Assembly (NCBI RefSeq): GCF_026151205.1
Contig: NC_087078.1
Location: 6,715,675-6,779,674 of the forward strand
Direction of reading: 5' to 3'
Source: Bolinopsis microptera
Lineage: Eukaryota; Ctenophora; Tentaculata; Lobata; Bolinopsidae
DNA length: 64,000 nt
The translations under genes were made by a program, and so were the position numbers. Under the pieces are notes generated by a model that had not been told where the DNA came from, did not search any database, and saw only the letters and a list, made by a program, of their open reading frames with translations. Positions 6,809-33,300 of the stretch are shown here, one piece after another (position 1 is the first letter of the stretch; each line of letters begins with the position of its first letter).

Positions 6809-7019
6809 CTCAATTTGAATTTAAGCTGTTTAAATAGTACTTAAATAAAGCTGGTGCCAACTTTGTTAGTCTTGTTCTGGTTATTTATTACTTTTGTAAA
6901 CTCTTTCAAAGTCTGACTACGATTTATATAATAGCATTACAACAACAATTACACCACTTGTATTCGTTTAAGAAACACTTCTTAAGTTACTTAGTCTTAC
7001 AATATCACCCCATCAGGAT

Positions 7020-8288
7020 ATGAACGGGACAGAAGGACTGGTATCAGGGCTTACCAGCACCACCTCACTGGATGTAGTTATAGGCCCCGCTACAACCCCC
7101 CTGATAGACGTGGTGTCAGGTCCCACAACTACCCTGGAGGTGATGACAGTCATACTGATCCTCTCCCTCATGATCCTAGGAATCCACTTTAACTCCCTGG
7201 TCCTGTATATGTTCTGCAAACACCGTCATTACCGTCTCCCCTCCCGACTCCAGCTATTCTCCCTGGCTGTCGACGATATCGGAACTGCTATCTTTGTGGA
7301 GCCCATGGTCATTTCCATGTTCTACAAGATTGAACTCTTCGCCCAGAACAATGTTCTCTGTAGAATCTTCTCGAACCTTCTGCACATTTTCCCCTGGGGC
7401 TCCATCATCAGTTTAATGGTTCTCAGCTTCACCAGGGTCGTCATCGTGCTCTATCCTCTAGCCTACAAGATCTGGGTGACTCGGAGGAGAGTGGTGCATG
7501 TCATAGTTGCTAAGTACTTGTTTATAGGCATCTTCCTGACCGTCTCCAACCCGCTGTGGACGTTCATCTTCATCCCGAGCGTACAGTCCTGTTTCGTGAG
7601 CTACACGGGGACGGTTAACGACCACGTGCCCCACGTTAACGTGATCCCCTATATCATCCTGATGGGGAGTGTGATAATAGTGCTGCTGTCTGGTGTGGTG
7701 CTGGCACAGTTCTGTGGGATACCCTGTAGTAGGGGGGTCGGGGGAGGCCTGGCTAAACACAGAGCCCAGATGCCAGGGATAGCTAGAGAGCTGCTCCTTT
7801 TAGTAGCAGTTTACCTCTTGACCACTTTCTCTGTTCCTATGGTAGCCCTGAAGCGCTATCTCAACTTCAACCTCTCCCCTCAGGGGGAAGTGGTGTTCGC
7901 TCAGGTTGCCAAGGTGCTGTTCTATGTCGGCCCAGTCGCTAACCCTGTGATCTACGCACTGAGACGAGGTGAGTATCGGGACACACTAGCCTCTTCTTTT
8001 AAGCTCACTATCAGCGCCAGACGAATAGTCCGGGAGAGAACCACGGCAAAGAACGAGCTGGTAATCGACACCGAGCTGAATCATCATCAACAGAAGGGGA
8101 TCTGTAAGGTCAAGTTGAGGAGAGGATCCTCAGAGAATCAGCTACGAGCAGAGCGGAGTATTGAGCTTGAGGATATCACTGTTCGGAGGAAGTCGACTCT
8201 CTATCTCCGCAAGAAGTCTTATAATGTGCGCTTGCCAAAGGGTGGGTTCATTTTCAAGAACAATGCTGCACCTCACGGTTATGATTGA
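7020..8288 (+). CDS. Class A (rhodopsin-like) G protein-coupled receptor, single exon
   Basis: This intronless 422-aa frame has seven hydrophobic segments and class A landmarks. The N-terminus has an N-glycosylation sequon at N2 and a Thr-rich stretch with a repeated LDVV/IDVV...GP...TT pattern. N58 (GIHFNSLV) marks TM1 and D85 (LAVDD) is the TM2 sodium-site Asp. C114 before TM3 and C191 in the second outer loop can form the usual disulfide. The TM3 DRY motif is T138-R139-V140. TM6 has FSVP (270-273) instead of CWxP, and TM7 carries NPVIY (308-312). A basic tail of about 105 residues follows. It should sit in the plasma membrane and couple to G proteins. The ligand cannot be told from sequence. 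Start chosen at ATG 7020, the first in frame, giving a short extracellular N-terminus. The degenerate DRY and CWxP motifs are common in lineage-expanded invertebrate orphan receptors. Confidence 0.93.
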   Translation: MNGTEGLVSGLTSTTSLDVVIGPATTPLIDVVSGPTTTLEVMTVILILSLMILGIHFNSLVLYMFCKHRHYRLPSRLQLFSLAVDDIGTAIFVEPMVISMFYKIELFAQNNVLCRIFSNLLHIFPWGSIISLMVLSFTRVVIVLYPLAYKIWVTRRRVVHVIVAKYLFIGIFLTVSNPLWTFIFIPSVQSCFVSYTGTVNDHVPHVNVIPYIILMGSVIIVLLSGVVLAQFCGIPCSRGVGGGLAKHRAQMPGIARELLLLVAVYLLTTFSVPMVALKRYLNFNLSPQGEVVFAQVAKVLFYVGPVANPVIYALRRGEYRDTLASSFKLTISARRIVRERTTAKNELVIDTELNHHQQKGICKVKLRRGSSENQLRAERSIELEDITVRRKSTLYLRKKSYNVRLPKGGFIFKNNAAPHGYD

Positions 8289-9242: not shown

Positions 9243-12200
9243 CTAAACAAATGCCCCAAAGTATCTCAACAAAATTACCCATCTTACAACTACCCCAGTC
9301 CTCAAACTCTCCCCCGAACCCTTCAAACCCCCCGCCTTCTCCTCTTCAATAATCCCTGCCAGCTCCTTGGCATCTTGCAAATACAACCTCTCAGAGAAGC
9401 TGGGTGGCACTACAGTCCCCCTGATGGTACACTGAGGCCAGGGGCACCCCCGGGTGTTGAAAACAGCAATACTTTTCTGGTAGGACGACCAGTAACTGGT
9501 GGTGTTTAGGTGTTTGAGGAGGGAGAAACAGATCGGGCAGTCGCTGTGTACTTTGTTGAGAGGATCAGCGTAGTTACACCATTCTCTCCTGAGGGAGATC
9601 TTAGTTACTAAGTGAAATTGAAACAGATCGGGCAGTCGTCGGATTTGCACTATTCTCTCCTGGGGGAGATGTTAGTTACTAAGTGAAATTGAAACAGATC
9701 GGGCAGTCGTCGGATTTGCACTATTCTCTCCTGGGGGAGATGTTAGTTACTAAGTGAAAGTGAATGTGAAACAGATCGGGCAGTCGTCGGATTTGCACCA
9801 TTCTCTCCTGGGGGAGATGTTAGTTACTAAGTGAAAGTGAAAGTGAAACAGATCGGGCAGTCGTCAAATTTGCACCATTCTCTCTGGGGGAGATATCATA
9901 TGCCAAGTAACATGTGCTCTGTATTCTGTCGAGAAGATCTAGATAGTTGGACCATTGTTAGTCCCCCTAAAGTCTACCTCAAAGTCTACCCTTATTGGCA
10001 GAGCTTCTTGGATATTGCCAAGATCTGGCCTAAGAAATTCGAGCTTTTAGTGTAATTCTACTGCAGTTTCAAACTTTTATTATAATTCTACTGCGGCTTG
10101 GAGCCTTCAACAGCAACCTTTTTACTATCATTAAATTAATTCGGTTGGGGGATTTAAAAGGGTTCTGTAGAACGATATCTTACTACTCATTATGTTAAAA
10201 GGTTTCCGGTATTTAAGTACCCGTTTAATTTGGCTCCAAACATTAGAGCATTAGGATGCCTTTTGATATTTAACTTGACAGGTGGTTTAACAGTCAAGGT
10301 GTCAATAATCTTATATTATAACCCACTTAGGGGCCATCTACTTAGGACGTCCGCCAAAATCGCACATTTTCAGACCACCCCCCTCCCCCTGTCCGGGTGT
10401 GTCCGAATTTTCAAAACCATCCCCTCCCTATTTGCCGGACGTCCTAAGTAGATGGCCCCTTTTATAGCCCACTTGTAACTTACCCAATATATTTAGGCAT
10501 GGCCTCCATGTAGTAATCTAAGTTGTACTGGTGTAGTTCTGCTAGGAGTTTGTCAGCGAGGGAGGTTGAGTTGTACTCCTTCAGGGTATCATTGTTACAA
10601 TTCAATCTTTTCAGACACGCTCCGTACTCTCTGACGAAGAAGGGTTAGGAAGAAATCGAACATTCGTTTACAGTAGTTATTGAAATTAAACAATAATCAG
10701 GCATAAGAGATGGAATTGTCCAAAGCAGGTAGCTATGAATTGCACTGCAAAATAATGAGTAACATATACATCATACAGTTATTTAATTGTGATATGAATG
10801 TAATGAATTGGTTTCTGACGAAAAGATGGTGACGAATAAGTAACAGTTTCTCACTTCCGATGTGTACAGGAATCCTCCTTTGTAGAGTATCTGAAGTCTC
10901 TAATCTCGGAGTCCCACAGCCAGTTCAGATTAGATGTGAAGTAGTACCGAGAGAACCGCCTCCCTACCATATGCCTCCACCGGCATTCAGACAGGTTCCA
11001 GATACTGCACTCTTCTAGATCTGCGGGGGTCGCATTTTGGTTTGAAATTAGAAGTTGTGAGTTAATCTCACACTAAAAAAGGGTCAAGATAATACCTACG
11101 AGGAGTTCTGGAAATGGTGGAGGGCAGGATCAAATAGCTGTCATTAAGAATGACATATAAGATTCAAAGAAAACACAAATAAAAAACCTCTCATCACTTT
11201 GCTTCTCCTGTCTAGTCTCCATTGAAGGTGAGTCTTTTCACATCTGTGCTGTACAAGGAAACTCGTAGCTCTCCTGGCACCACTTCTGATATCCCTCTTT
11301 GTCCCCGGGTTCTCACAGTCTGACCAGATAGTTTTTGTTAATTAGTTAATCACTTAACAAGCTCATAAGCTAATTAGTTTATAGGTAAATTATTACTAGC
11401 AAAATGCTTACGAAGACACTCATATAAATAACGTCTTCAAAAACTGAAAATGGGAGAATACTAGTATTCATATGTTTTTAACACAGAAGTTCACACTATG
11501 ATTAAATACCAGTAATCTCAATAGAATCAAAGCAGATGAGCTGAAAGAGGGCCATATCACAGTTGTTTCTGGGATGTTTAGGGGGCTTCCAGGTCATCCC
11601 ACTCAAGTAAGATAATGAACCCATCATCAGGAACTCATCTTCAGGTGATCCACTAAATGGAAACGCGTAATACAGCTCTGTAATGATCAATATTAAGGTT
11701 TGCTATACAACTATCTAGCGAAGATATTTAAATATAAATCAAATATCTCTGATAGTAAAGGGCCATCTACTAAGGACGTCCGCCAAAATCGCAGATTTTC
11801 AGACCCCCCTCCCCCTGTCCGGGTGTGTCCGGATTTTCAGAAACCACCCCCTCCCCCAGTCCGGATTTGTCCGAAATCCCAAAACCAGCTCCTCCCTATT
11901 TGCCGGACGTCCTAAGTATATGGCCCCTTTCTTATAACATGAAATTTGAAAATAATAATCAAGGGAAAGAGAAAGTGAAACTTGTGACGCTAACCTTTCC
12001 AATACCACCAAGTGTGGTCGGTAGTGAAGCCGGAGCACCTTTCTCTGATACCCCCCTTACAATCTGTACGTGTTAACCGCTTCTGTAAGCAGTAGTTTTA
12101 ATAAAGGTTTAATTAGCTTTTGATATCAAAATTAGGGGGATGATCAGCGATAATAAAAAATAAGAAAGAATTCAGAAGCTTTTAGGCGTATTGAAAATGT

Positions 12201-15200
12201 TCAACAATCTTTGCAATTTATGACATGGTGAAAAAGTATAGGGAGATGGTGAAAATGTGTAGGAACATGGGAACACCCCAGACAAACTTACAAGATTGCC
12301 GTCATGGCTGGGTCCAGGTACAGTGGTAGTGAAACTCATTGTACTAAAGGGGGTTGTCATGGTACTACCGAAAGTACGGGTAAAGTTGGTTCCTTGTATT
12401 GTGTTCGAGGAAAGAAGAGGTGGAGGAGAAGTATAGTTCTGCTGCACTGTCTCGTTTATAAAGCTGCACGATACCCTGGGATAGTGAAAGTGAAAGTGAA
12501 TGTTAAAGAGTAGTTCTGCTGCACGATACCCTAGGATAGTGAAAGTGAAAGTGAATGTAAAAGAGTAGTTCTGCTGCACGATACCCTGGGATAGTGAAAC
12601 TGAAAATTAAAGCGAAGGTTAACGAGTATTTCTGCTGCACTGTCTCGTTAATCGAGATGTACGATACCCTGGGATAGTGAAAGTGAAACAAAAAGGTAAT
12701 TTCTTGGACAAAAGTTTCACAGTTTTGACTAAATTTCACTCCAGTGACCAATTAGTCGGTTAACTATGGATGGCAAAAACACTTTCTGAATTCTGTCCCA
12801 TTTTCTCCCCTGACCAATGAGTCAGTCAACTTGAACTATGGAATCTGTAAGTGTACTAACTTTGGATCAATTCCCATTCTTCTGAGCTCATTGTACATTG
12901 TTATCATCCTCGGGTAGGGTTGAGTCTTCGTCTCAAAACTAGCCGCTCCACTCGTGTGATCCACCTGATGTTTAATTATGGTTTTACCACCGAGTTTTGG
13001 TTCAGCCGAAATAAATTTTACTTTGATGTTTACATAATGTTTCTCACTCCAGCTGTAGTCTGGTAGTGTTGAGTCTCATGAATATTTTTCTAGCTCTCTT
13101 TTTCCATGTTTAAGCCTCACAGGAGATATTGTGGTCTTTTTTTTATTGAATATAACTGTAATACATTGATGTAAAGTTTATTTGAATTTTGAAATTTAAA
13201 AAAATTAATACATAAAAAATAAAATGGATAGTTAAAGTTGGTCAGACTACTCAACATTTGATCAAAACAATCAGTTGTTGCCTGGTTGTCCAGAAACAAC
13301 TGACTAGCAAGAGCATCATATAATTTGATGTCCATACAACAACATGCCTCCTTTGCCACGTCACCTCCATCATCTCCGCTTAGATAACTCCGGCAACCTC
13401 CTTCAGGGTTGCCATACCCCAGAGGCAGACAGAGCATCATATCACCCAATTATTTTCTAAAAAACTGACCTGCCAACAATATGCGTTATCCTCCCAGAGC
13501 AACATGGCACGACTAATGTTGTGACAGAAAGTCTCAGTATCATTGTTGTCCTTGGTTGCCGCCATTAAGTCGATCTCTGAATCTAGATCATCACGCTCTT
13601 TAACAAAACATGAACCTGACATTTAGAGACTATAAACGACTTGTCTCTTTCTCAGGTTTGGGCAAAATCAAGTGTACCCGAGAGAACGCAGCAGATTCAC
13701 TTCAACTTCAAGCTAACAGAGGGGCCAAAAAAAGACGAACTCACCACAAACGTCACTAGCAGTGATGATATCAGGGGAGGAGTATCTATCCAGCACAGTT
13801 ACCCCAGTAACAGGTTCTCTAGAGTCAGCAGGGGAGAAGTCGGCCCAGGTCAGGGTGTACCTGGTGTTTCGTCTCCTCTTGTTTGAGTACAGGTGGGGTA
13901 TCATACAGCTGCGGAGGTGGAGAAAGTGAACCTGACATTTAGATACAGAAAGTGAAAGAGAAGCTAACAGAAAGGTTCATTAAGTCAAAATGACACTTAC
14001 TTGAAGGTATAGAATATGAAAATGAAAGTGACAGACAGGACAGTGAAATTAACTTGCGAGTGGATAAAATGATTCTGAAAATAACTTGAAGGGAAAGAAA
14101 TAAAGAAATTACGCACACTAACCTCAATGGTTGGTCAATGGTCATAAATAAAGTAAAAACTGTGAATTTCGGTCAATGAAACGGCAAAAAAGCTTCTAAT
14201 CACAAATCTTCCAAAATTTCTCCGTATATTCTGATGATTTTCAGTTGTTTAAAACTTTATTTGGTAATCTGACTTTCGATACCTTAATCATGTCTGGTGC
14301 CATCCACAGTGAACTCATTCATTGGTCATTCAGCAAAAATTCAGTCAAAACAAAGAAATTTGGCAAAAGACACGATTGAGGTACTCAAAGTTCTATTCCC
14401 AAAGAAAGCTTTGATAAACGGAAAATCATCAGAATATAAAAAGAGATTTTCAAAGATTTTTGAAGAGGAGCTTTTCTGCCGTCCCCTTGGCCGAAATGTC
14501 GCGGTTTTTACTGAAATTTTGACCAGTGACCAATCAGTGAGGTCGGTGAGAGTGACACAAGTCGCCATCAATGTACTGAAAGATTACATCCGGAGAAAGC
14601 TTTGATGCAATGAACATTTCAAATATGTCTCCAGATATTAAGTTTCCAGTTTCTCGATGGTGACTTGTGCCACTCACCATGATCTCACCGGTTGGTCACC
14701 GGTACAAATTTTGTCAAAACTAACGTTGACGTGGGTAAAATGATCGAGAAACAAACTTGAAGGGATAGAAATTATAAAGTTAAAGCGAAACTTACTTGTA
14801 GGTGGAGTGAGCGTGTGAAATATCATCATTGAACATGTCTGTGATCAGAGCGTAGACTATCAACCCATCAAACTGTCTAAACATGTTGCCAACTTTCGTT
14901 AAACTGCGACCTGGTTACAAAAGGTTATAAGCATCCCACTCTACAGTCTACAAGACTACACAATATGAATATATACGGCTGAGAAGTGTAATGGAGGGGG
15001 GGGGGGGGATATAAAGTTCACTTTTCTTTCCATGTGAACGTCAATAAGAACAAACATAAGGGGGATATCTCGGGTCATCAACCTCCTAGCCTTCCCCTCC
15101 GCAACATCCTTCATCCAACCTCTGAAACTTATTGGTATACATCCCCAATACCCATCCCTTTGAGAGTTGAGTTTTAAACGGACTCTCACCTAAAGCAACA

Positions 15201-18200
15201 GTACCAGGAAGAAGGAAGCTTTTGTAAGGTTTGACAGTGTTGAGGATGGGAGTGAGAGTGACCATGAAGTGGCCTGGTTGTTTGTACCACAGAGTTACAT
15301 TACCAGTCATCATGTCAAACCGCAAACATACTAGCCGCAGATGATCCTTTACTCTCTGGAGAAGACAAGTTTTGTATTATTTTAGATTGGGTTTAAAATG
15401 GCTAATATCTGGCTAACGTGATGTACGGATAATTTTAATTGAAATTTAGAAATTAAATTCAATAAATGAATGAAACAAACCCATGTGTTCGGTTTATAGG
15501 AGTAAGGAACAGACCACCTCACCCAGCGTATCACATTCTGTAGGGTCCCCTGTGAGTTGGTCCAAGAGAACTTCTGAGCAAGCCATATGGTGTCCCAATT
15601 AGCTGTGAGAGTCAGACTTTTCGTCGGTCTGTTGAGCCCATTTCTCGATACCTCTGATGGCCGAAATGTACCGTTATACAAAGCCAGATTTGTTAATAGA
15701 AGTTAACTGTTTTGATAACAAAATTTAAAAAAAAACCATTAATGCAGAGTAATAGATGGTCATATATAGCCAATAAATAAGTAAATGAAATGGGAAATTT
15801 CGATGTTGAATAGCAAATAAATGGCAATAGTCATTTCTGAAATACAGTAAAACAACTCATGCCTAACATTATGGACACCTTTGAAGCTGAAGATGTCGTA
15901 GTAAGTGTGAGGGTTGCTGGGAGCGTATTTCACACACCACGTAGTGGGTTTGTCACGACGAGGACTGAAGGGTCTCAGCACTCGGGGTCTGGGACTCACC
16001 TGGTCATCTAGGTCTAGCGGGGTGAACTGGAACACGTGCTCATCTGAAACACAAGGATATATCGTAACCGGGTGTTGAAATATAAGGTGGGTTGAGATAT
16101 ACTGAAACACAAAGAAAAGTAGTGTAAGATGCATTATATCAGACCAGCTGACATCAACAAACAGCAACTGAACAACAGCTGCAATCATCTGTACCTAAAT
16201 TTCCAGATTTAGGAGCCAGTTTTTCGCAGCTGAGGTAAGATAATAAGAAAATAGTCCCACCTGTAGAACACCAACACAGTCTAACAAACCCTTCTTTAGT
16301 AGCGTCACACCGCTCCTTAGCAGTGTGTGAACGTGTCCACCGGGAGGTGTCTTTACTCTTGATACCCTGACACACTGCTCTTTGACTCTTATCCGTCAAT
16401 TCTTCGTACCCTGATGGAATGTTGGTGAATATACATACTAATACTGTATCTGAGAAAGCTTTTTTTAAAATCAATAAACTTTCAAAATGTTTACAAATAC
16501 ATCATTTTATTTCAAAGAAAATTCGCCGAATGACCTTTCATGCCTTGACGAGTGACCGAGTGTAAACAAAATTAGGGACACCGAAACATCAGTTGACCAG
16601 TAAACTGGTCATAGCAATTACATCGGGCCCTATATGCACCTATAAGTAAAGCGATGCTGCAACCAAGGCATGCTAGTTTTATTCCATAGGACTAAAAAGG
16701 TTACAATCTAAAATATAAATATAATAACTATGTGCCATAATTATAAACACAATTTATAAAACATATTTTATTAATTTGATATTGAGATATAATTAATTTA
16801 AAGATAACAAAAACTTTCAATTATCAAAATATATAATATCGTTATCTATAACAAGAGATTATAATTACTGATTAAGGATTTGTGGCTTTTGTACGTGGAA
16901 TGCGCACGGATCTTTAATCAGTAAAATGACAGTGAAATTGTGCAGAGGTGTTTAGCATTGTAAAACTGCTCGAGATTAATCATAATTCGTCTTGATAGTT
17001 TGGTAGAAGTCATTACAAAAAAATGTTCTAGATAAACAGATGAATAAAATGAAGGTTAGGAGCAGTTAATAAGACTAAGAACATTTCCATATAGCATATT
17101 CCCAAAGTGAGGCCAGTAAAACTAACCAGGCTGATGAATTCCCTTGAACACCTCGTTAAGGATCACAGCTTGGCACATCTGTTGAGCTATAGTCTCTATA
17201 ACATCAGGGTAAGGAAGGTCCTGGGAGCACACCATTGACTTAGCAGAGCAGGCAGCAGAACAGGATTCACCAGGGGCGCTCCATGTGTGATCTGGAGATT
17301 TTGTGAGTTTAAAACTGCAAAAATTGCTGTCTTATCAAATTCATGTACGTTTGTTAATTGCTCTTGTTATCAGCATCGCACAGCCTTGCTTAAATCGAGT
17401 ACAACGTGTACATCGCTACTTGTACATAAATCATAATGAGCTATACATTGGAATCCCTGCATCGATTGGAGAAGGACATTCGGGGAACTTTCGATTCGTT
17501 GACTGGAGCAGCTAAGTGTAAAAACATCACTGAAGTTACGAAGCATGTTCTTATGAAAGGGAACAATGTCAGCAAAGACTCACTTGCTGGATTTGTCATG
17601 GAATTTGTTAAGATTGTAAACTGCAGCACAGACATTCTTAAATCTGCGTCATCAAATATTGACACTTTGAAATCTGATCAGATTGTAAATCAGAAACTTA
17701 TGTTGGAGCTTAAGGACGAAATTATTCAGAAGAAGGACAATCATGTTCAGAAAGTTCAGGAGGTCGTCAAAACAGAAGTTAAATCGTTTAGCGACATAGT
17801 GAAGCAGAACAGTCCACAGATCCCAGGCAAAACTTTGCAAGCGGCTGTGAAATCAGCAGTTGACAATGATAATCGCAGTCGCTGTGTGATGGTATACGGA
17901 CTCAGGGAGGATCCTAAAACCAATCTTGATACAGTTGTGGGAGATATGCTTAGTGAAATTGCTGGAGCAGAAAAACCCTTCGTGAGGGAATGTTACCGTC
18001 TGGGAACTGCGAAGCCTGGCCAACATCGTCCAGTCAGAGTTTGCTTCAGCCGATCAGACTCAGTTTCTGTTTGTGCTCAGTAATGCTAAGAACTTGAAGC
18101 AGTCGTCACAGTTCAATAAAACATTTCTGAGTCCTGATCGATCTCCTGAGGAGAGGCTGATACGGAGAAAACTTGTTGAATCTTTAAAAGCAAAGATGGA

Positions 18201-19123
18201 GAAAGAGCCAGAAAAGTATCACTTCATACGAGGAGGAGAGATCTGCACCACTGAAAGAAAAGTGACCCCGCAACACAGCACGGAAAAGAAGACGATTCCA
18301 CAACACTCAGGATTCTCGATTCCGCAACATTCAGGATTCTCCACTTCGAGTAATCGTGCTGCTGGCCTCAACAAATCTTTTACGCAGGGACCATGGATTC
18401 CAGGAACACTGTCCATTAGTACTCCGATGAAAAAGCGATGAATGTCGATTTGCCGTGATTCTAGCTTTGTGTGTTATTGTGTGATTTCAATGCACGGCAA
18501 TGAAGGGACTCAGGTACCACGATCTGGCAGACAAACATGTCTGAACAGACATAGCGAGTCAGATCTGGTTCAGGAAATTTTATCGTTAAAGAGATATTCA
18601 TATTTCATATGAATCAATACTCAGGTTTCTAATTTTGGACTCGCCCGGGGTTTGATTATGATACTTTGAGGAATGATGCTTTGCTGACATTTGATTTATA
18701 AGTTGATTTCAAATCCCCTATGGGTACCAGAAATACTGGTTTCACAACAACCGTGATTGTTACTCAGGTGTGTGATGATTTGTGGAGCACATAGTAATCG
18801 CGAAGCAGGTCTCACCGAGGCTAGGTATATAACTGGTTGTTCCAATTTACCAACTTACTAACTTACTAAACAATATCCTGTTAGCCGACACTTTCTAAAG
18901 TTAATGAAGAGCATATTGTCACTTCTGCGGGGTGAAAATTGGAAAGGAGCATGGGTTTTGGCGGCTACCGGACAACTGAACCCAATTTAGACAATGTAGA
19001 CTAACCCAAACCCTAACCAATTAAGCTGATTGGTTAGTGGGAACTAGGTTCAATTGGGTTCAGTTGTCGGTCACCCGTTTTGCGGCTATAATACATCAGG
19101 GTTTCATAGTATAGGATGTTCCA

Positions 19124-19157
<34 letters not shown>

Positions 19158-19681
19158 TGACTGACTAACTGACTGACTGACTGACTGACTGACTGACTGA
19201 CTGACTGACTTACCACGGAAGGGGTACGGGTCACCGCCCCACCACGAGTAAGAACTCAAACTCTTCTTGAAGAGTTCTTCGTTATAACAGTCTGAGATTC
19301 CAGAGATTATGAGAATACATTAACACCTACATGTTAATCGTTATTGTTTAAGTCCTACTCGTAGTTTTCTGTTTGCTTCAAGTGATAAAACATGATAAAA
19401 CATGTAAAGGACGTAGAGTAAGTTAAAACATTTCAATTTTCATTCATGAGTTTTATATGAATTAAAAAAATAAGAATACACCGTTAAAACACTTACTGTG
19501 CTTCCTGGCTTGAATCTCAGTTTGTCTAAAACAGATCTTAGCATTGTAGAGCACCGCCACTTTCTTCCGGCTCACCGAGCCAATGGTCGGGTTCCTAGGG
19601 TAACCGCTAACATTCTCCGCACAGTACAAAGGGTCACAAACTGAAGATATAACCTTATGAGCTTATGGTTATTAGCTAGGA

Positions 19682-19716
<35 letters not shown>

Positions 19717-22700
19717 CGGGTGCCGAGTACTGTACGTGAATGAGTCGTTCTAAGAGAATAGTTGAGAAGAGTTTTTCTATGGCACTGCTGACAGCAACTG
19801 CACGGTAGTTGTCAGGATTCGATTTATTTCCCTTTTTATGAAGTGGAGATATAATGCTGACGTTCCAGGGATAAATTCCTTGTGAGAAGCAGGCGTTGAA
19901 GAGGTTCAACATAAACAATTTATGATTGGTGTCCAGAGATTTTATAATTTCGTTATTAATCATGTCGAGTGAGGAAGCTTTACCATTTTTGAGGAATTTT
20001 ATACTAGAGTCAAGTTCTGTTATGGTAATTAAGGTGTTGAGTGACTCAGGATGAGTTGCACCTTGATTTATCAAGTCAGCCTGATCAATCATAGAAACTT
20101 TTTAATTTTCATTTATTGTTTTGTGGTTATCAGAATATAGGTTACCAAAAAAAGTCTCGAATCTATTCATATCATGACTGTCAAAATTTAAAGTTTTCTT
20201 TTTCTGATTTTTTAGTTTTTTGAAAGATTGCCAGTTGAGAATTTCCCCCCCCCCCCCCCTCTATGTCCTCATTCATACGTGCGAAGAATTCGTTTTTGTG
20301 CAGAGTTCTTCAAACGCTTATAGCTACCCTTGACAAGATAATAGTTTCCACGTATAAAGTTGTTTGACGGGAATTTTGAGGTTGCATCTGTACCTTTACG
20401 AAATTTTCTTTTACCTAATCTCGTTTTCCAGTTAAATCAAGGTTTGTTTGAGGTGTGAGATTTTTTGGGTGGTTTGGTTTGTTTGAAACACTTCGAGGCC
20501 ATGTCGCGAAGATGTTCTGAAAGTAGTTTGTTAATGTCTTTAAGTTCAGTTTCATAATTACGGTAATTGTCTGCTAAAATATTTTGATTGGTGAGTAAGT
20601 CGATTTTCGACTGAAGATCTTGGATTAAGGTCAATGATAGATTTTCTGACTGCGCTTCGAAAAAGTCGTCTTTGTTCTCTTCGTTGATAATGATTCTGGT
20701 TGGCGCTGTCTGATAAGTGTCCTGTAATGGGACGCATTGGTTGATCGCGAATATATTGCATTTTAATTCAGTACTGAGGGGCTTATGATCAGAATGTTCG
20801 GTGAATGTCAAGATTTTGAGTCGATGTTGACATGCAGTCTCTTAATCTGTTAGTTTTATTGTTTACATTCAATATCGGATCCTTTTAAAATTAAAAAGTC
20901 ATGTTTAATGAGCTGTTTAAAGCAATTTCCTGGTGGGTATCTTATTTTATATACCAAGACACAGTTAGTACCGTGATTTCTCAACAGTTAGTACCGCAAA
21001 AGCCAGCAAAAGGGGTGGGTGTCTTAATAATTATCCGGAAAAACAGTTAGTACAGTGAAGGGGGTGGGTGGGTCTTTTGAAAAATTCCAAAATTACACTT
21101 AGTTAACGTCAAGTACAGAACTTAGTTCTATAATAGCTTAGTTCTATAATAGCTTAGTTATAGTCTATAATAGCTTAGTTCTAGAATAGCATGGCAGCTA
21201 TAATAGCTGCCATGCTATAATAGCTGCCAAGCTATAATAGCTGTCATGCTATAATAGCTGTCATGCTATAATAGCTGCCATGCTATAATAGCTGCCATGC
21301 TATAATAGCTGCCTTGCTATAATAGCTGCCGTGCTATAATAGCTGCCATCCCACATCCAGAAAGGTTTATATTTCCTCCCAGATGCTTTTTTTTCTAAAT
21401 TCTGTGGCCAGCTCGCTTCGCTCGCAAGTTTGGGGGGGGGGGGGGGCTGTCGGCGAGCGAAGCGAGTAGACGTGTCCAATCCAGCTGCGCAGCGAGCGAA
21501 GCGAGCAAGCTGTGGCAGGGGTCTGGGGGCGGAGCCCTTGGCGGGGGCTAGGGGGCGCAGCCCCCGGAATTTTTTTGCGAAATAGGGTGTTTTAGACGGC
21601 ATTTGGCATTAAAGAAATTTGTAGGACAGCAATAAACTGGGATTGAAAAGAATCAAGTACTCACGTAAATTTGGTAACTTCACAACAGCAATCTGCATTC
21701 TCCAATCAGAATATTTCACTGTGTTCCAAAACTGACGGGATGTTCCCCTTTGATTTTTATACAATCGAAACATTTTCTTCAAAAATTTCCTCAATTAATT
21801 TGTCTTTATTCCTAAAAATATTTCGAAATTTAGGAGTAACTTCTCAAAAATGTCCTCTTTTTCTCCCGTTTTTCCTCCCAAAAAAAAATTTCCTCCAAGG
21901 CTGCCTTGCAAGATGGCGTGTTTCTGGATGTGGGGCTGCCATGCTATAATAGCTGCCATGCTATAATAGCTACCATGCTATAATAGCTGCCATGCTATAA
22001 TAGCTGCCATGCTATAATAGCTGCCATGCTATAATAGCTACCATGCTATAATAGCTGCCATGCTATAATAGCTGCCATGCTATAATAGCTGTCAAGCTAT
22101 AATAGCTACCATGCTATAATAGCTGCCATGCTATAATAGCTGCCATGCTATAATAGATACCATGCTATAATAGCTATCATGCTATAATAGCTGTCATGCT
22201 ATAATAGCTGCCATGCTATAATAGCTGCCATGCTATAATAGCTACCATGCTATAATAGCTACCATGCTATAATAGCTGCCATGATATAATAGCTGCCGTG
22301 CTATAATAGCTGCCATGCTATAATAGCTACCATGATATAATAGCTGCCGTGCTATAATAGCTACCATGCTATAATAGCTGCCATGCTATAATAGCTACCA
22401 TGCTATAATATCTACCATGCTATAATAGCTGCCATGCTATAATAGCTGCCATGCTATAATAGCTACCATGCAATAATAGCTGCCATGCTATAATAGCTGC
22501 CATGCTATAATAGCTACCAAGCTATAATTGCTGCCATGCTATAATAGCTGCCATGCTACAATAGCTGCCATGCTGTAATAGCTGTCATGCTATAATAGCT
22601 GCCATGCTACAATAGCTGCCGTGCTATAATAGCTACCATGCTATAATAGCTGCCATGCTATAATAGCTGCCATGCTATAATAGCTGTCATGCTATAATAG

Positions 22701-25315
22701 CTGCCATGCTATAATAGCTGCCGTGATATAATTGCTGCCGTGCTATAATAGCTGCCATGCTATAATAGCTGCCATGCTATAATAGCTATCATGCTATAAT
22801 ATCTACCATGCTATAATAGCTGCCATGCTATAATAGCTGCCATGCTATAATAGCTACCATGCTATAATAGCTGCCATGCTATAATAGCTACCAAGCTATA
22901 ATTGCTGCCATGCTATAATAGCTGCCATGCTATAATAGCTGCCATGCTACAATAGCTGCCATGCTGTAATAGCTGTCATGCTATAATAGCTGCCATGCTA
23001 CAATAGCTGCCGTGCTATAATAGCTGCCATGCTATAATAGCTGCCATGCTATAATAGCTATCATGCTATAATAGCTGCCATGCTATAATAGCTGCCATGC
23101 TATAATAGCTGCCATGCTATAATAGCTGCCATGCTATAATAGCTGCCATGCTATAATAGCTGCCATGCTATAATAGCTGCCATGCTATAATAGCTGCCAT
23201 GCTATAATAGCTGCCGTGCTATAATAGCTGCCATGCTATAATAGCTGCCATGCTATAATAGCTGCCATGCTATAATAGCTGCCATGCTATAATAGCTGCC
23301 ATGCTATAATAGCTGTCATGCTATAATAGCTGCCATGCTATAATAGCTGCCATGCTATAATAGCTGCCATGCTATAATAGCTGCCATGCTATAATAGCTG
23401 CAATGCTACAATAGATACCATGCTATAATAGCTACCATGCTATAATAGCTACCATGCTATAATAGTTACCATGCTATAATAGCTGCCATGCTATTTGCAG
23501 TTCCCAAAGGGCAAAGGTCGTCCCGCCGCGCCAAAGTAACCATCGCCATGTTTACTGGACTATTCCACACTTGTAATCTCCCTTACTTTTCCCTCTACAC
23601 CCTAGAGGCTAGACACGGTCACATTTCTAGCAGCATTGAGCTGGCCATGCCCGTTCTTCGCGAATAATTTCATGTTTTTCTACTCGTGGACCATCGGGAA
23701 GATTCTGATGACAGCAGTTAATGTGACCCTTAATCCGCTGCTCTGCTATTACCGGATGACGGAGTTTAGGTTGTGGATTTTGGAGCTGTTTAGCAAGATA
23801 TTCAGAAGACAGTAAATCATGATAGTCGAGTGATGTGGAAAGTTTTGACGCCACTAAGTACTTAAGTACTATTTAGTAACCACCCTATATAAGTATATAA
23901 CCAATATGTAACCAGGGTAGATTAAAAAGTTTCCAACTGGAGATAAAGATAAAATCACTTACTCTCTCTACACACAGGTTTTCGCTCAAAGTTGAAGACT
24001 CTAGCATCTCTCCTGGAGCAGTTCGCCTTGAACTCCCATGTAACTGTGAATCCCCAAACTCTTGGATCTGAAATGGAACGTTATGCAGTACTTCGACAAT
24101 GTATTGTTGCACTTTAAACACAGCGTTGAGGTGTATTGTAAACACTTATGAAGAGATCAATGACTTGAGTATATCAATTGTTGATAAAACTGTAAAAGTG
24201 AGACTGTGTGAGCATAACAATTGTTAGTGTAACTGTAAAAGTGAGACTGTGGGCAAAAATTGGCACAATCGTTGCTACTTATTCGTGGAACAGGGTTCTA
24301 GCTTGTAGCTGTAGCATACAGCTTATTTGTATATTAATTCGTATTTAAATTAAATAATGTTGATAGTTTTGGATCGAGAATAATTGTAAATGCTCTTGAA
24401 AAAAGAAGTAAAATCTATGATTAATGCATAATGAATAGGGTGACTAAATACGAAATGAAGAGATAAAGCGTGGTTCTGGGAACATACAGTGCGACAAGTT
24501 AAACTAATAATAAGTTTGAAGCATCCCTTACCAGCATTCCCTACTGCTCTTAGTATTGTAGAATAATTAAATTGGAAATGAGGATCGGACATTGTTAAAT
24601 GTTTTTGTTGTGCATTCAACATTACTTTTATCTAAGAACCTTTGGGTTCCCTCCGTTATAAGGATCTAACAGTCCAGAAGGTGTGCCAGTTATATTTAAA
24701 TTATCGACTAGCGGTCTATAAAATCAGTTAGATCCAAACAATGAGGCTTCGCTTCTCATCGTTCCATTTAAGCACGCCGAGCCGGGGAAGAAGAACGATA
24801 GAAATATTGAATAAATAGAAAAGAATATTCAAACAATATACACATAATATAGCAATGGCCAATTGGCTGACTATAAGGTCATGGCCTGAACAAACAATTT
24901 TTTTAAATAGTCAAGTGATGCTAAAGCAGAGCAAAAATATGTAATAAGTTAATAGATCAAAAACTGAACGATAGAAGTAGGGTGCTAAGTGCTCTGACAA
25001 AATTACGGGCCCGATTCTGATAAAGGCCGCAGTCTTATAAAGTTAGAAGAAAAACCTAAAGCGTTGACACAGATTACACACTTTAAATGACCGGCCTCTT
25101 CCAAAAGCACTGAAATGTTCACAGCAATAGCCAATAGTACAGACTGACCAATACTGAAGGGCGAAGGCCAGTGAACAAGGAGTTACATCATTTTTACAAC
25201 TCACATCTAAACCAAACTATATGTAGAGTGTAGACTTACCAGGACCACTTCCAGTACCGGAGATAACAACACAGATCAGTATCGATAGGAGCAAGAGGAC
25301 ACATATTGCAATCAT
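9243..25315 (-). CDS. Large secreted modular protein (MGAT5-type Cys module plus LamG/pentraxin-like domain), 19 exons, 914 aa
   Basis: The exons join with consistent GT-AG sites and phases: 25315-25240, 24067-23963, 19640-19497, 19291-19214, 17291-17127, 16437-16261, 16043-15879, 15653-15523, 15355-15190, 14910-14796, 13908-13745, 13615-13470, 12964-12861, 12044-11995, 11677-11510, 11319-11188, 11020-10855, 10630-10484, 9588-9243. Residues 1-19 are a signal peptide or anchor (MIAICVLLLLSILICVVISG). Residues ~134-248 contain W-S-A-P-G-E-S-C...C...C with LCWC at the end, the cysteine pattern near the C-terminus of MGAT5-type proteins and of many secreted protist proteins. Residues ~250-440 resemble a LamG/pentraxin sandwich (HLRLVCLRFD...TGNVTLWY, then GTVALG and FDGLIVYAL). 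Residues ~441-914 are Cys-rich and unrecognised, ending with WCNY...CPICF and an acidic stretch. It is predicted to be extracellular, with unknown function. It runs divergently from the SV2-like gene. Certainty is high for the exon chain and moderate for domain names. Confidence 0.85.
9588..9900 (-). repeat. ~70-bp tandem array made of decoy copies of a 3' splice site and exon start
   Basis: Four extra copies of the last intron/exon junction of the 914-aa gene lie just upstream (in gene sense) of the real terminal exon. Each has a pyrimidine tract, an AG, and the start of the exon (GAGAGAAT.GTGC...CTGCCCGATCTG) with an internal deletion compared with the real exon. The junctions are near 9660, 9730, 9808 and 9885. 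In the two copies nearest the real exon the codon equivalent to TGG is TAG. All copies also run into an in-frame stop soon after CPICF. Confidence 0.85.
10329..10460. mobile_element. MITE with 25-bp perfect terminal inverted repeats, copy 1
   Basis: The left end AGGGGCCATCTACTTAGGAC and onward is mirrored exactly at 10436-10460. The ~80-bp interior is C-rich, with a repeated GTCCG. A second family member lies at 11759-11928. The element is non-coding and sits in an intron of the 914-aa gene. No convincing target duplication was seen, so the superfamily is unknown. Confidence 0.85.
11759..11928. mobile_element. MITE, same family, copy 2
   Basis: It has the same termini as the copy at 10329-10460 with small differences (ACTAAGG for ACTTAGG, AGTATAT for AGTAGAT) and the same interior start (CGCCAAAATCGCA). 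It has about 40 more bases because the GTCCG-containing block is repeated once more. It sits in the intron between the exons at 12044-11995 and 11677-11510 of the 914-aa gene. Confidence 0.85.
12425..12690. repeat. ~57-bp tandem repeat with GTGAAA runs
   Basis: Four imperfect copies of a unit holding CTGCACGATACCCTGGGATA followed by (GTGAAA)n and TAAAGAGT. On the gene strand it reads as repeated pyrimidine tracts (TTTCACTTTCAC) followed by CCCAGGGTATCGTGCAGCAG, so it looks like reiterated splice-acceptor-like sequence. It is intronic. Confidence 0.8.
14297..14605 (+). other. Open frame of 102 codons inside an intron, function unknown
   Basis: This frame (MPSTVNSFIGHSAKI... to ...LKDYIRRKL) lies in an intron of the minus-strand 914-aa gene. 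I recognise no family. Nearby introns contain related fragments (CAGTGACCAAT.AGT), which points to a dispersed repeat and not a gene. Listed so the stretch is described. Confidence 0.2.
17436..18441 (+). mobile_element. LINE ORF1-like fragment, frameshifted
   Basis: Two frames meet near 18065-18075. The first (215 codons from 17436) has a coiled-coil-like Lys/Glu/Val-rich region and then an RRM-like segment (RCVMVYGLRED...FVRECYRLG...RPVRVCFS). The second (from 18073) continues with AKNLKQSSQFNKTF, SPDRSPEERLIRRKLVE and KYHFIRGGEI. This succession is typical of ORF1 proteins of CR1/Jockey-type LINEs. One frameshift separates the halves. No endonuclease or reverse transcriptase follows, so the copy is 3'-incomplete or a processed fragment. 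It is antisense within an intron of the 914-aa gene. Confidence 0.75.
19124..19211. repeat. (GACT)n microsatellite abutting a splice donor
   Basis: About twenty tetranucleotide copies with a few changes. On the minus strand the array begins within the donor of the exon at 19291-19214, reading GTAAGTCAGTCAGTCAG, so the donor itself may be part of the array's first unit. Confidence 0.9.
19683..19714. repeat. Poly(G) tract, 32 bases
   Basis: An uninterrupted G run at the 3' break of the truncated minus-strand LINE. Its true length is likely uncertain because such runs assemble poorly. Confidence 0.9.
19715..20830 (-). mobile_element. LINE fragment: end of endonuclease to start of reverse transcriptase
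   Basis: On the minus strand the order is: endonuclease end (FTEHSDHKPLSTEL), linker with W-to-NYY...Y-type residues, and reverse transcriptase N-terminal half (KNGKASSLDMINNEI, WNVSIISPLHKKG, NPDNYRAVAVSS). The copy starts at the end of the endonuclease and stops at the poly(G) run, before the YADD active site. A poly(C) run at about 20247-20261 shifts the frame. It is a dead fragment in the long intron between exons 23963-24067 and 19497-19640 of the 914-aa gene, on the same strand. Clade not decided (CR1/Jockey group). Confidence 0.85.
20950..21128. other. Spacer with three CAGTTAGTAC motifs
   Basis: CAGTTAGTAC occurs three times within about 100 bases (near 20957, 20985 and 21045) between GGGGTGGGTG blocks. 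This is possibly the edge of a repeat family. No coding potential. Confidence 0.4.
21129..23494. repeat. 17-bp satellite array (GCTGCCATGCTATAATA)n
   Basis: The array occupies about 21129-21349 and 21935-23494, interrupted by an inserted element. Units are 17 bp with recurrent variants (GCTACC, GCTGTC, ATGAT, GCCGTGC). The left edge is a less regular CTATAATAGCTTAGTT repeat. That suggests an older seed from which the array grew. The array is intronic in the 914-aa gene. Higher-order repeats are visible: blocks such as GCTACCAAGC followed by a CTATAATT unit recur near 22510 and 22890. Confidence 0.97.
21350..21934. mobile_element. Non-autonomous hAT-like element inserted in the satellite
   Basis: Perfect 14-bp terminal inverted repeats (CCCACATCCAGAAA / TTTCTGGATGTGGG) bound 585 bp. 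The bases GCTGCCAT flank both ends (21342-21349 and 21935-21942), an 8-bp target duplication as made by hAT-superfamily transposases. The interior has GC-rich inverted blocks (CTCGCTTCGCTCGC / GCGAGCGAAGCGAG), a poly(G) run and GGGGGCGCAGCCCCC. No transposase frame. Confidence 0.85.
23495..23815 (+). pseudogene. GPCR 3' remnant (TM6-TM7) with a frameshift
   Basis: From the satellite edge the frame reads RRAKVTIAMFTGLFHTCNLP, a TM6-like helix with a basic cytoplasmic start. It continues as a loop until a stop at about 23666. The overlapping second frame supplies WPCPFFANNFMFFYSWTIGK, then NVTLNPLLCYY, a TM7 NPxx(C)Y motif, then a short helix-8-like tail ending FRRQ and a TAA at 23815. One frameshift near 23640-23655 separates TM6 from TM7. 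TM1-TM5 are missing, replaced by the satellite. The family is class A-like. It differs from the intact receptor at 7020. Confidence 0.7.
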
Positions 25316-30300: not shown

Positions 30301-33300
30301 TTGGTTTATCCTACTGGGCATGAGTTCGATGGCACAGGCTTCAGAGATAGCACTAGCCAGCGTCATTCTAAGTGATCTGATATGCGAATGGAAAATCTCT
30401 GTTGCGAAGGTAAGTCTAATATAAGACTTTTGGGTCATGCAGTTTGTTCAAGTTACACCCTGTTTTGTATCAAAATATTTTGTATTTTTGTGCGAGTACA
30501 TGGATGAACTATGCTAATAAAGCATAACCACTTTAGGCATCACTTATCCCCGCTCTGGTGTTGCTGGCTGCCGTCCCAGGGGGCTATATCGGCGGGGTCA
30601 TCGCGGACAGACGGGGCCGGAAAACTGTCATCATTACTGGCCAGTGGCTCATCTTAAGTGAGCGACAGAGTGTGATACAGAGTGTGAGCATTGTGTATTT
30701 TGATGGTGTAAGCATTCTGTGACTTAATAATGGTGTGTGATATTAGATTGTGTGTTATTGAATTGTGTGTTTTCAGTTTGAGAATTGAGTGGAAACATGT
30801 TCGTGCTTCGCCGGATTTTTATGTTTAAGGTTGTGTCTCTCATCATATCCATAAGATTTTTTGGAAGTAATTTATAAAGCACGTAATTTTTAGTGACTGT
30901 CGTCACATTGACAAAAAACAAAACCACTCTGTCCACCTAATATTCTTCAAACCTCTCTACTTTTCTACGCCCTCTAAACTCTCAAACTATCCCAGTATTC
31001 GGAGTTCTGAGCGCGTTCATGACCAGTTACCACTCCTTCGTTCTAATCAGAATGGTGGTAGGGTTTGGGTTCGGGATCGTAACGTCACTGGTGATAGTTC
31101 ACGTGAGCGAGATCTCTCCTCCTCAGTTCAGAGCTTACAGTATCGCTCTCAACGTCTTCATGTGGTCGGTTAGTAGCTTGGTGGCTCGGTAGCCATGGTG
31201 ACTTGTTTACGTTGGTTATTTAAGTATTTAGCGATAACTTACAAAATCAGAAACTTAGTGATCTTGGTAACCTGGTTACTTAGTAACTTATCAGCTCACC
31301 AGCTCCCCCCTAGATAGGAGACTGTTTCATAGTGCTGATGGGTTACTACTCCCTTGGTTACGGGTGGAGTGTGGTGGTGTTAGCAGCCTGTATACCTGCT
31401 CTCATCATGTGTATTGTTATCCTATTCCTGGACGAGTCACCCAGATACCTCTCTATATCTGATAACGTGAGTGAAATTTTAGAGTCTAATTACTTGACCT
31501 CTCTTGTTTTCATGTTTTAGCAAAAAGTTAGTTGTTGAAATTGATCATTTATTCAGTACGTTACGCAAATTAAATTATTTTTAAAAAAAGCCTTAAACAC
31601 TGTAACCATACCAGATACACGAAGCAGAGAGAATACTAAATAAAATGGCAATGATAAACTATAGCACCTTACCACCTGGGAAGCTAACAGCAATTCCGGG
31701 TAGGATTTAATTACCATTTTAAAATGTTAAAGTGTAAAAGTATAAAAGTGTTCTGTATTTGTGCTAACTTCAATATCCTACTGACCTGAATAGTATGATA
31801 TCGGATTTTTACCAGATTTTCACACGCAGTTTTTAATATGTTGGCTGCTTGAATCTATTCTCATCGTCAGAATTGGAAATAAAATGTTTAATGAATTTGA
31901 TAATATAATTATTTGATCAGAGCCTGATAGAGGAAACATTAGGGATATGTTCACTGGACAGTTTAAAAGAAATTCTTTACTACTGCTCTTCACCGTCTTC
32001 GCCGCCAATTTCGTATATTACGGGAACATCTTCAGTCTTCCTTACCTCTTTAAGGTTCGACCTTCGAAAGAAATGTGTAGATGTTAACTTTAAATCGCGG
32101 TCGAATTTTGAATTAAATATATATAAGCGTGTTTTTAGATTAATCCAATCATTTTAAAATTTGACGTCTGAATAAATCAAATATTGGATTAACTTTTTAA
32201 ATTCCATCAAATTCACTGAACGGAAGTCGAAAATTGAATTAAAATTACTGTAGTTGTTATATTTAGACTTGGCATCTTTGTAAGCATATGGATGTTTGTG
32301 TATAATGTATATGTATAATGTATGATGTATAATGTATAATGTATAATGTATAATGTGTTTATTTCAGGACGAGTACTGCGCAGTTATGAACTCCACAAAC
32401 CTGAATGTGACCTTTGTTGACATCGACTGCACTTTCAGTAAATCCGAACTCATGGCAACCCTTGAGGTATTTATATGTATTAGGATTGATAATGATACCG
32501 AAATTTTGTGTGTTTAATCTGATTGTTCCACCATAATTTCCATTTCAGCTCCTTTGATATAATTGATAAATAACTCTAATTTTTGTTGGTGAAGCGAATC
32601 AATAGCCAGAGTTAGGTTTTTGAAATCTTATATTTACTCAATACTCATCATAACCCAAATAAAACCTCAGGTGTCAGCAGCTGAATTCCTCTCTATCCCA
32701 ATATTCGCTCTGCTGGTTGAGAAGCTGGGCAGAATCAAGACCGGCATGATACTAGGTGAGGCCGGGTATAATTTGTAAAACTTTCCAGTGTCTCCACTTT
32801 TTGAAAAACTGGACTAGCATAACTAAAATCGAGCAAATCGAAATTTTGGAGGGAGTAAAGTTGTAATCCGAAAATTAATCCTCCTACGTATCGTCGGATC
32901 TCTTCCAAGGTGCTGTTATTCCGATTTGATCACCAAGTCACACCACCGTATCTTCAGGAGTAGCTACTGCGATCTCCACTGCTGCTTGTGTCCCATGCCT
33001 GGGTCTCATACTCTTCAAATCAGAGCTGTTTTTACAACGTATGGTGGTGAACGCCTGGCTCCTCCTTATATTCATCTACTCTCCTGAGCTCTACCCAACT
33101 TATATCCGCAGGTTTCTTGAATGTTTTGAGGAAGTGCTGTTTGCAAATTTTAATAATTTAGATTGTCATTGATTGTAGAGGGCAGAGAGCTTAACGAGGA
33201 AGTATAAACTCCTAAATCGTCAGATACCCACTAACCATTAGGACCCGCCAATCTCTACTCAGTGCTCACTTGACCAACATCGGACACCAAAGTCCCACTC

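Follow-up and report, generated by a model that had tools for sequence, protein, structure and literature searches.

Among described proteins, GnT-V (MGAT5, glycosyltransferase family GT18) comes close to the one examined here through its C-terminal part. According to the available excerpt of one report, its residues G628-L741 form a separate C-terminal domain that holds five of the enzyme's eight disulfides (PMC6107550). In our comparisons, the cysteines of the human GnT-V C-terminus are spaced by 3, 6, 20, 20, 10, 10 and 1 residues. In Pfam this domain corresponds to the end of PF15024. Intron phase 1 at both borders is the usual signature of shuffled extracellular modules. Literature queries combining MGAT5 with ctenophores, or using Glyco_transf_18, returned nothing, and neither the module nor the gene described below was recognised in the titles and abstract openings returned by our searches.

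Here we analyse a stretch of 64,000 nucleotides (the window) from the ctenophore Bolinopsis microptera, which corresponds to G000:C7:6715675-6779674 in genome coordinates. Its minus strand carries a gene, with its ATG at 25315 and its stop codon at 9245-9243, whose product contains a cysteine module resembling the GnT-V C-terminal domain. We think it fairly likely that the gene is real and encodes a secreted extracellular protein, rich in disulfides and assembled from several parts by exon shuffling, in which the module is an MGAT5 homologue and the whole would serve a matrix, mucus or adhesive role.

Gene model and coding signal

Exons were joined by phase and by GT-AG sites, so that all 19 introns are GT-AG and every join is in phase by construction of the model. 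Our preferred model comprises 20 exons; its product has 973 residues if exon 8 ends at 15523 and 987 if that exon ends at 15481. A first-pass annotation of the same DNA had described nineteen exons splicing in phase from a signal peptide to a stop and a product of 914 residues. Its gene ends, 9243 and 25315, are exactly those of the revised model, and the open frame from ATG to stop and the hydrophobic leader also stand; the exon count and the protein length are superseded. The features are as follows (codon rank is the rank of the chosen frame among six, as described below).

Exon 1: 25240..25315, minus strand; start codon and hydrophobic leader (residues 1-25); donor GTAAGT; codon rank 5
Exon 2: 23963..24067, minus strand; phase 1-1, N-terminal cysteine-bearing region; codon rank 1; copied on C7
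Exon 3: 19497..19640, minus strand; phase 1-1, N-terminal region; codon rank 1; 144/144 bases identical in the C1 copy
Exon 4: 19214..19291, minus strand; phase 1-1, N-terminal region; codon rank 2; 78/78 bases identical in the C1 copy
Exon 5: 17127..17291, minus strand; first half of the MGAT5-C-type module (PGESC-x3-C-x6-C ... C); phase 1 in and out; codon rank 2
Exon 6: 16261..16410, minus strand; second half of the MGAT5-C-type module (C ... C-x10-C-x-C, RLCWC); phase 1 in and out; codon rank 1
Exon 7: 15879..16043, minus strand; start of the region earlier called LamG-like; codon rank 1; no family match
Exon 8: 15523..15653, or 15481-15653 with a weaker donor (GTTTGT), minus strand; codon rank 2; extension scores +4.2
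Exon 9: 15190..15355, minus strand; codon rank only 5
Exon 10: 14796..14910, minus strand; end of the region earlier called LamG-like, without LamG/pentraxin support; codon rank 2
Exon 11: 13745..13908, minus strand; top codon score, +27
Exon 12: 13470..13597, minus strand; codon rank 1
Dispersed repeat: 12973..13208, no strand assigned; non-coding, within the intron that follows exon 12; copies elsewhere in the genome
Exon 13: 12861..12964, minus strand; begins just beyond the dispersed repeat; codon rank 1
Exon 14: 12292..12475, minus strand; Ser/Thr/Pro-rich linker (19 Ser/Thr and 6 Pro among 42 residues); codon rank 5
Exon 15: 11995..12082, minus strand; start of the C-terminal Cys-rich region; codon rank 2
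Exon 16: 11510..11677, minus strand; weak donor GTATTT; codon rank 1
Exon 17: 11188..11319, minus strand; weak donor GTTTTT; codon rank 1
Exon 18: 10855..11020, minus strand; codon rank 2
Exon 19: 10484..10630, minus strand; codon rank 1
Exon 20: 9243..9588, minus strand; C-terminal part and stop codon; codon rank 1

The coding signal was measured by a leave-one-out codon test, in which the chosen frame of each of the 20 exons was ranked among the six. The chosen frame was ranked first in 11 of the 20, against an expectation of about 3.3, with a total of +192 bits, and 10 of the 20 exceed 9.5, the highest score among 110 stop-free intronic runs of at least 30 codons each. Third-position GC is about 54%, against 38% GC in the introns. 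By these sequence measures the gene is real in outline. Nine exons are not ranked first, which makes individual exons less certain, mainly exons 1, 9 and 14, all at rank five.

An earlier model of ours, with 21 exons, contained a false candidate exon at 13350-13251 (codon score -0.6) and an exon begun at 13059, inside the dispersed repeat, where the repeat stretch scores -7.9. This repeat is 95-97% identical to three copies elsewhere, and residues 561-592 of the 21-exon model were matched at 20 of 47 places among the matches listed in a genome scan. Both were dropped: with the candidate removed and the exon start moved to 12964, a phase-0 to phase-0 join links 13470 to 12964 and leaves the 20 exons given above.

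The protein begins with a hydrophobic leader (MIAICVLLLLSILICVVIS), the first residues of which include no basic one. Hydropathy peaks at 3.22 in the 19-residue window starting at residue 1; the next separate maximum, 1.23, lies at the C-terminus, which is mildly hydrophobic and under the usual level for a membrane segment. The 987-residue form holds 39 cysteines and 12 N-glycosylation sequons.

It could be that two neighbouring genes, or a misjoined chain, have been read as one: an N-terminal gene of exons 1-13 and a C-terminal gene of exons 15-20, with exon 14 a Ser/Thr-rich frame that is open by chance and connects them. Although the splice sites of exon 14 are good and in phase on both sides, its frame ranks fifth of six with a score of -4.6, and the donors of exons 16 and 17 are weak. 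The fragments of the gene copied elsewhere in the genome are also separate, covering exons 1-2, exons 3-7 and part of exon 20. Against a division, the frame runs from ATG to stop with every join in phase, and visual inspection of the frames that follow exon 14 revealed no further leader. We regard two genes as rather unlikely and continue with a single gene.

The cysteine module and its kin

Exons 5 and 6 encode PGESC-x3-C-x6-C-x17-C-x28-C-x20-C-x10-C-x-C. All eight cysteines align with those of the GnT-V C-terminal domain (residues 628-741), the spacings x3, x6, x10 and x1 are common to both, and both share a PG-x-SC start and an R[LV]C-x-C end. The loops differ in length between the gene and GnT-V (Cys3-Cys4, 17 versus 20; Cys4-Cys5, 28 versus 20; Cys5-Cys6, 20 versus 10) and overall sequence identity is low. 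The position also differs: in GT18 enzymes the domain follows GT-B catalytic domains, whereas here it is internal, only about 110 residues separate it from the leader, and no catalytic domain is matched. PF15024 is absent from the 987-residue product at E<=10, from an early 1038-residue model at E<=1 and from pieces of that model at E<=10. When the shared spacings (x3, x6 ... x10, x1) were fixed as a pattern, picked post hoc from both sequences, 10 of 300000 shuffles of the module matched it, and with the Gly included 0 of 300000 did. The claim of an MGAT5-type cysteine module with no glycosyltransferase domain ahead of it is thus borne out by the cysteine alignment, the shuffles and the spacing tests.

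The same genome holds two further modules of this type. A genome scan with the gene's module returned the module itself, a partial copy on C1 (discussed below) and one weak match on C2 (E 3.1). At full length the C2 match, C2a (G000:C2:14.235 Mb), plainly looks like the same module, and a second copy, C2b (14.250 Mb), lies 15 kb further on. An alignment of the gene, C2a, C2b and MGAT5 has 11 invariant columns (8 Cys, Gly, Pro and Arg); once MGAT5 is left out, the fourth cysteine no longer lines up in every sequence, and a ninth cysteine is present in C2b. Pairwise scores were compared with those of 5000 full shuffles and of 5000 shuffles with the cysteines held fixed. Against C2a the gene's module scores 70, a value reached by 0 of the full and 0 of the Cys-fixed shuffles. 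Its score against human MGAT5 is 50 (5 full, 35 Cys-fixed; 8 and 47 for a longer cut) and against C2b 40 (61 and 268). The score summed over the three relatives, 160, was equalled by 0 full and 1 Cys-fixed shuffle. C2a and C2b in turn reach MGAT5 scores found in 1 and 0 of 5000 full shuffles, respectively. On these alignments, we consider kinship of the gene's module with C2a secure and kinship with MGAT5 likely, the latter drawing on the cysteine frame with the C2 modules as a bridge.

It is here that convergence has to be weighed, that is, the possibility that the module is kin to the C2 modules and unrelated to MGAT5, the cysteine pattern having arisen twice. Profile searches supply arguments for this reading. 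The gene's module alone has no Pfam match at E<=10 and no PDB match. A search of PDB with a profile of the genome's three modules gave MGAT5 as five of six matches, all short (profile positions 2-24 only) and at E 3.7-5.3, with an unrelated protein on top (E 0.37); a two-module C2 profile did not find MGAT5. A hidden Markov model of MGAT5 only gave no signal on the whole protein (1.2 bits, reached by 20 of 1080 window ORFs, 299 of 5000 shuffles and 751 of 5000 Cys-fixed shuffles). Models that include the C2 modules gave the whole protein 8.6 bits (C2a, C2b and MGAT5 together; reached by 1 of the 1080 ORFs and by 7 full and 71 Cys-fixed shuffles of 5000 each) and 9.1 bits (C2a with C2b; 0, 0 and 21, respectively). 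The 35 or 47 Cys-fixed shuffles that equal the pairwise MGAT5 score point the same way. The full shuffles oppose it, being so rarely as good for any of the three modules, as do the shared start and end motifs. Moreover, C2a and C2b agree in the part of PF15024 that they match, its very end (471-557 or 476-557), at E 0.048-0.19, under the cut-off, with DUF702 slightly outscoring PF15024 for C2a. We judge convergence improbable and keep to common descent. In the reverse direction, the human MGAT5 C-terminus found one spurious match in the genome (E 1.2), and PF15024 found none in a search that is uninformative, since its control was also found nowhere.

The surroundings of the C2 modules are informative. 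Between 14.234 and 14.258 Mb on C2, single exons on one strand match F5/8C, SUEL lectin, LDLa, MAM, trefoil and Pentaxin in Pfam, none of which Pfam finds in the gene's protein. Both modules lie less than 10 kb from the Pentaxin match (E 9.4e-8) and on the same strand, possibly in one gene with it. As for the borders, exons 5-6 together are phase 1-1, both borders of the C2a exon are in phase 1, and so is the end of C2b. Symmetric phase 1-1 borders in varied contexts, the mark of exon shuffling, are therefore found for exons 5-6 and for C2a. This suggests that the module is a mobile unit that moves between animal extracellular proteins.

Alternatively, the gene could be what remains of an MGAT5-like enzyme gene after loss of the catalytic part, which would make the module a leftover instead of a shuffled unit. 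Homology to the MGAT5 C-terminal domain speaks for such a descent. Against it, two more copies of the module lie close to unrelated extracellular domains, the borders are phase 1-1 in both the gene and C2a, and the gene's own copy is internal, with about 750 residues after it. We find such a descent quite improbable and prefer a shuffled module. A wider proposal is possible, though we hold it more tentatively: the MGAT5 C-terminal domain would be just one instance of a mobile extracellular disulfide module of ancient origin, which still occurs free of any enzyme in ctenophores and which Pfam would cover only through the end of PF15024, and the gene would represent a secreted family of its own around it, possibly ctenophore-specific.

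If the module is mobile, a domain of the well-studied, cancer-associated GnT-V would join a wider class of extracellular modules. This would offer a route to the role of that domain and a new profile with which matrix proteins of animals could be annotated, and the gene's product would become a candidate for a secreted protein specific to the ctenophore lineage. The module finding alone alters no known mechanism.

With regard to the C2 segment itself, G000:C2:14231001-14260000 contains many MAM, LDLa, SUEL, F5/8C, trefoil and Pentaxin segments, and further ones can be picked out by eye, one of them kringle-like.

The remaining regions and the proposed role

The first-pass annotation had placed a LamG/pentraxin-like sandwich directly after the module, in exons 7-10, and had regarded the pairing of the two as new. 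We could not substantiate the LamG label. Neither splice form of exons 7-10 has a Pfam match at E<=10. Against PDB these exons gave three chance-level matches, none of them LamG or pentraxin (the best was galectin-9, E 0.087). Scores against human CRP and SAP were equalled by 552 to 1567 of 2000 shuffles across the two splice forms. A LamG/pentraxin consensus of our own drafting scored marginally (45 to 148 of 2000 shuffles), with another part of the protein one point higher. By eye, a stretch of exons 9-10 (TGNVTLWY ... LPGTVALGRS ... FDGLI) resembles what we take to be the end of a LamG_3/pentraxin domain, although neither profile nor pairwise tests lend it support. The novelty of an MGAT5-type module paired with a LamG-like domain is weakened by the C2 locus, where both modules lie within 10 kb of a Pentaxin match, so the pairing may be less singular than it seemed.

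The rest of the protein was placed in no family by these searches. The final 987-residue product has no Pfam match at E<=10, and NCBIfam gave no match at E<=1. Exons 2-4 gave one sub-threshold Pfam match (Fer4_19, E 0.015), which we take as chance. The early 1038-residue model had two chance-level matches in PDB, and the window has no Rfam match at gathering scores. Exon 20 folded alone reached a pLDDT of 40.9, which is uninformative. The proposal of an undescribed protein family consequently survives in a weak sense: the libraries searched (Pfam, NCBIfam) place the whole protein nowhere and give it no name.

Taken from its N-terminus, the predicted protein would consist of a signal peptide, about 110 cysteine-bearing residues without a family, the phase 1-1 module of about 100 residues, about 340 residues without a family, the Ser/Thr/Pro-rich linker and about 350 Cys-rich residues, again without a family. 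Within it, the module would act as a structural and binding or assembly unit and not as an enzyme. Its eight cysteines, probably paired in four disulfides, would staple a small domain, which may make contact with proteins or glycans in the extracellular matrix, in mucus or in an adhesive secretion. From the composition of the protein and the domain company that the module keeps, we infer that the product is most likely a secreted, disulfide-rich matrix, mucus or adhesive protein, probably O- and N-glycosylated, in view of its 12 sequons.

Partial copies and genomic neighbourhood

Parts of the gene recur elsewhere in the genome. A copy of exons 3-7 lies at about 14.41 Mb on C1 (G000:C1:14411262-14413998), in pieces that are 88-98% identical to the window, introns included. 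Its exons differ by 13 substitutions and 0 gaps over 702 aligned bases, and its introns by 33 substitutions and 38 gap positions over 1199, a contrast that adds to the coding signal. We considered whether this copy is a diverged paralogue and ruled this out in favour of a recent partial copy with alignable introns. On C7, some 160-190 kb from the gene, exons 1-2 and exon 20 recur as fragments (G000:C7:6900594-6918216); the copy of exon 2, at 6.917 Mb, is identical at 35/35 residues. Read from their alignments, the C1 and C7 copies are recent partial duplications of the gene. No diverged paralogue was found in genome searches at E<=10 with exons 2-4 and exons 18-20, which gave only the gene and its copies. 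The early 1038-residue model at E<=0.01 likewise returned only the gene, the copies and the repeat (44 of 115 candidates scored); for exons 7-12, relatives in the genome were sought at E<=0.01 only.

The copies raise the question of whether the gene itself is decaying and not expressed. Both are partial, the C7 fragment of exon 20 has stops, and in exon 5 of the C1 copy a His replaces the fourth cysteine of the module, so the C1 copy may be decaying. Repeats have also entered the introns of the gene. In the window copy, however, all 20 exons are open, flanked by GT-AG sites and jointly codon-biased, and we see decay of the gene as very improbable; an intact gene remains our preferred reading.

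The introns hold several further features. In intron 2, at about 21130-23490, there is a long array whose unit, judged by eye, is about 17 bases long and of the ATAATAGCTGCCATGCT type, and related repeats adjoin the C1 copy. Long frames within introns at 17430-18438 (plus strand) and 19679-20841 (minus strand) look by eye like retroelement remains, with no Pfam match at E<=0.01. In the intron before exon 20, at 9574-9894, the acceptor and first bases of that exon are repeated in tandem at intervals of 71-77 bases and could provide alternative acceptors. Intron 10 contains an imperfect foldback (14121-14543), a 429-column match that is 72% identical to its own reverse complement.

The plus strand of the window carries other long frames. 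At 6972-8285, convergent with the gene, a long single frame matches rhodopsin-type receptors (PF00001, E 4.8e-15). A reverse-transcriptase frame occupies 33216-34460 (PF00078, E 1.1e-21), and a long single frame at 38216-39622 matches innexins (PF00876, E 9.3e-31). Similar frames at 41944-42528 and 42535-43125, which have no Pfam match at E<=0.01, appear by eye to be tandem copies of the one at 43220-43741, where near-identical ephrin-receptor-like cysteine repeats are found (PF07699, E 1.4e-13).
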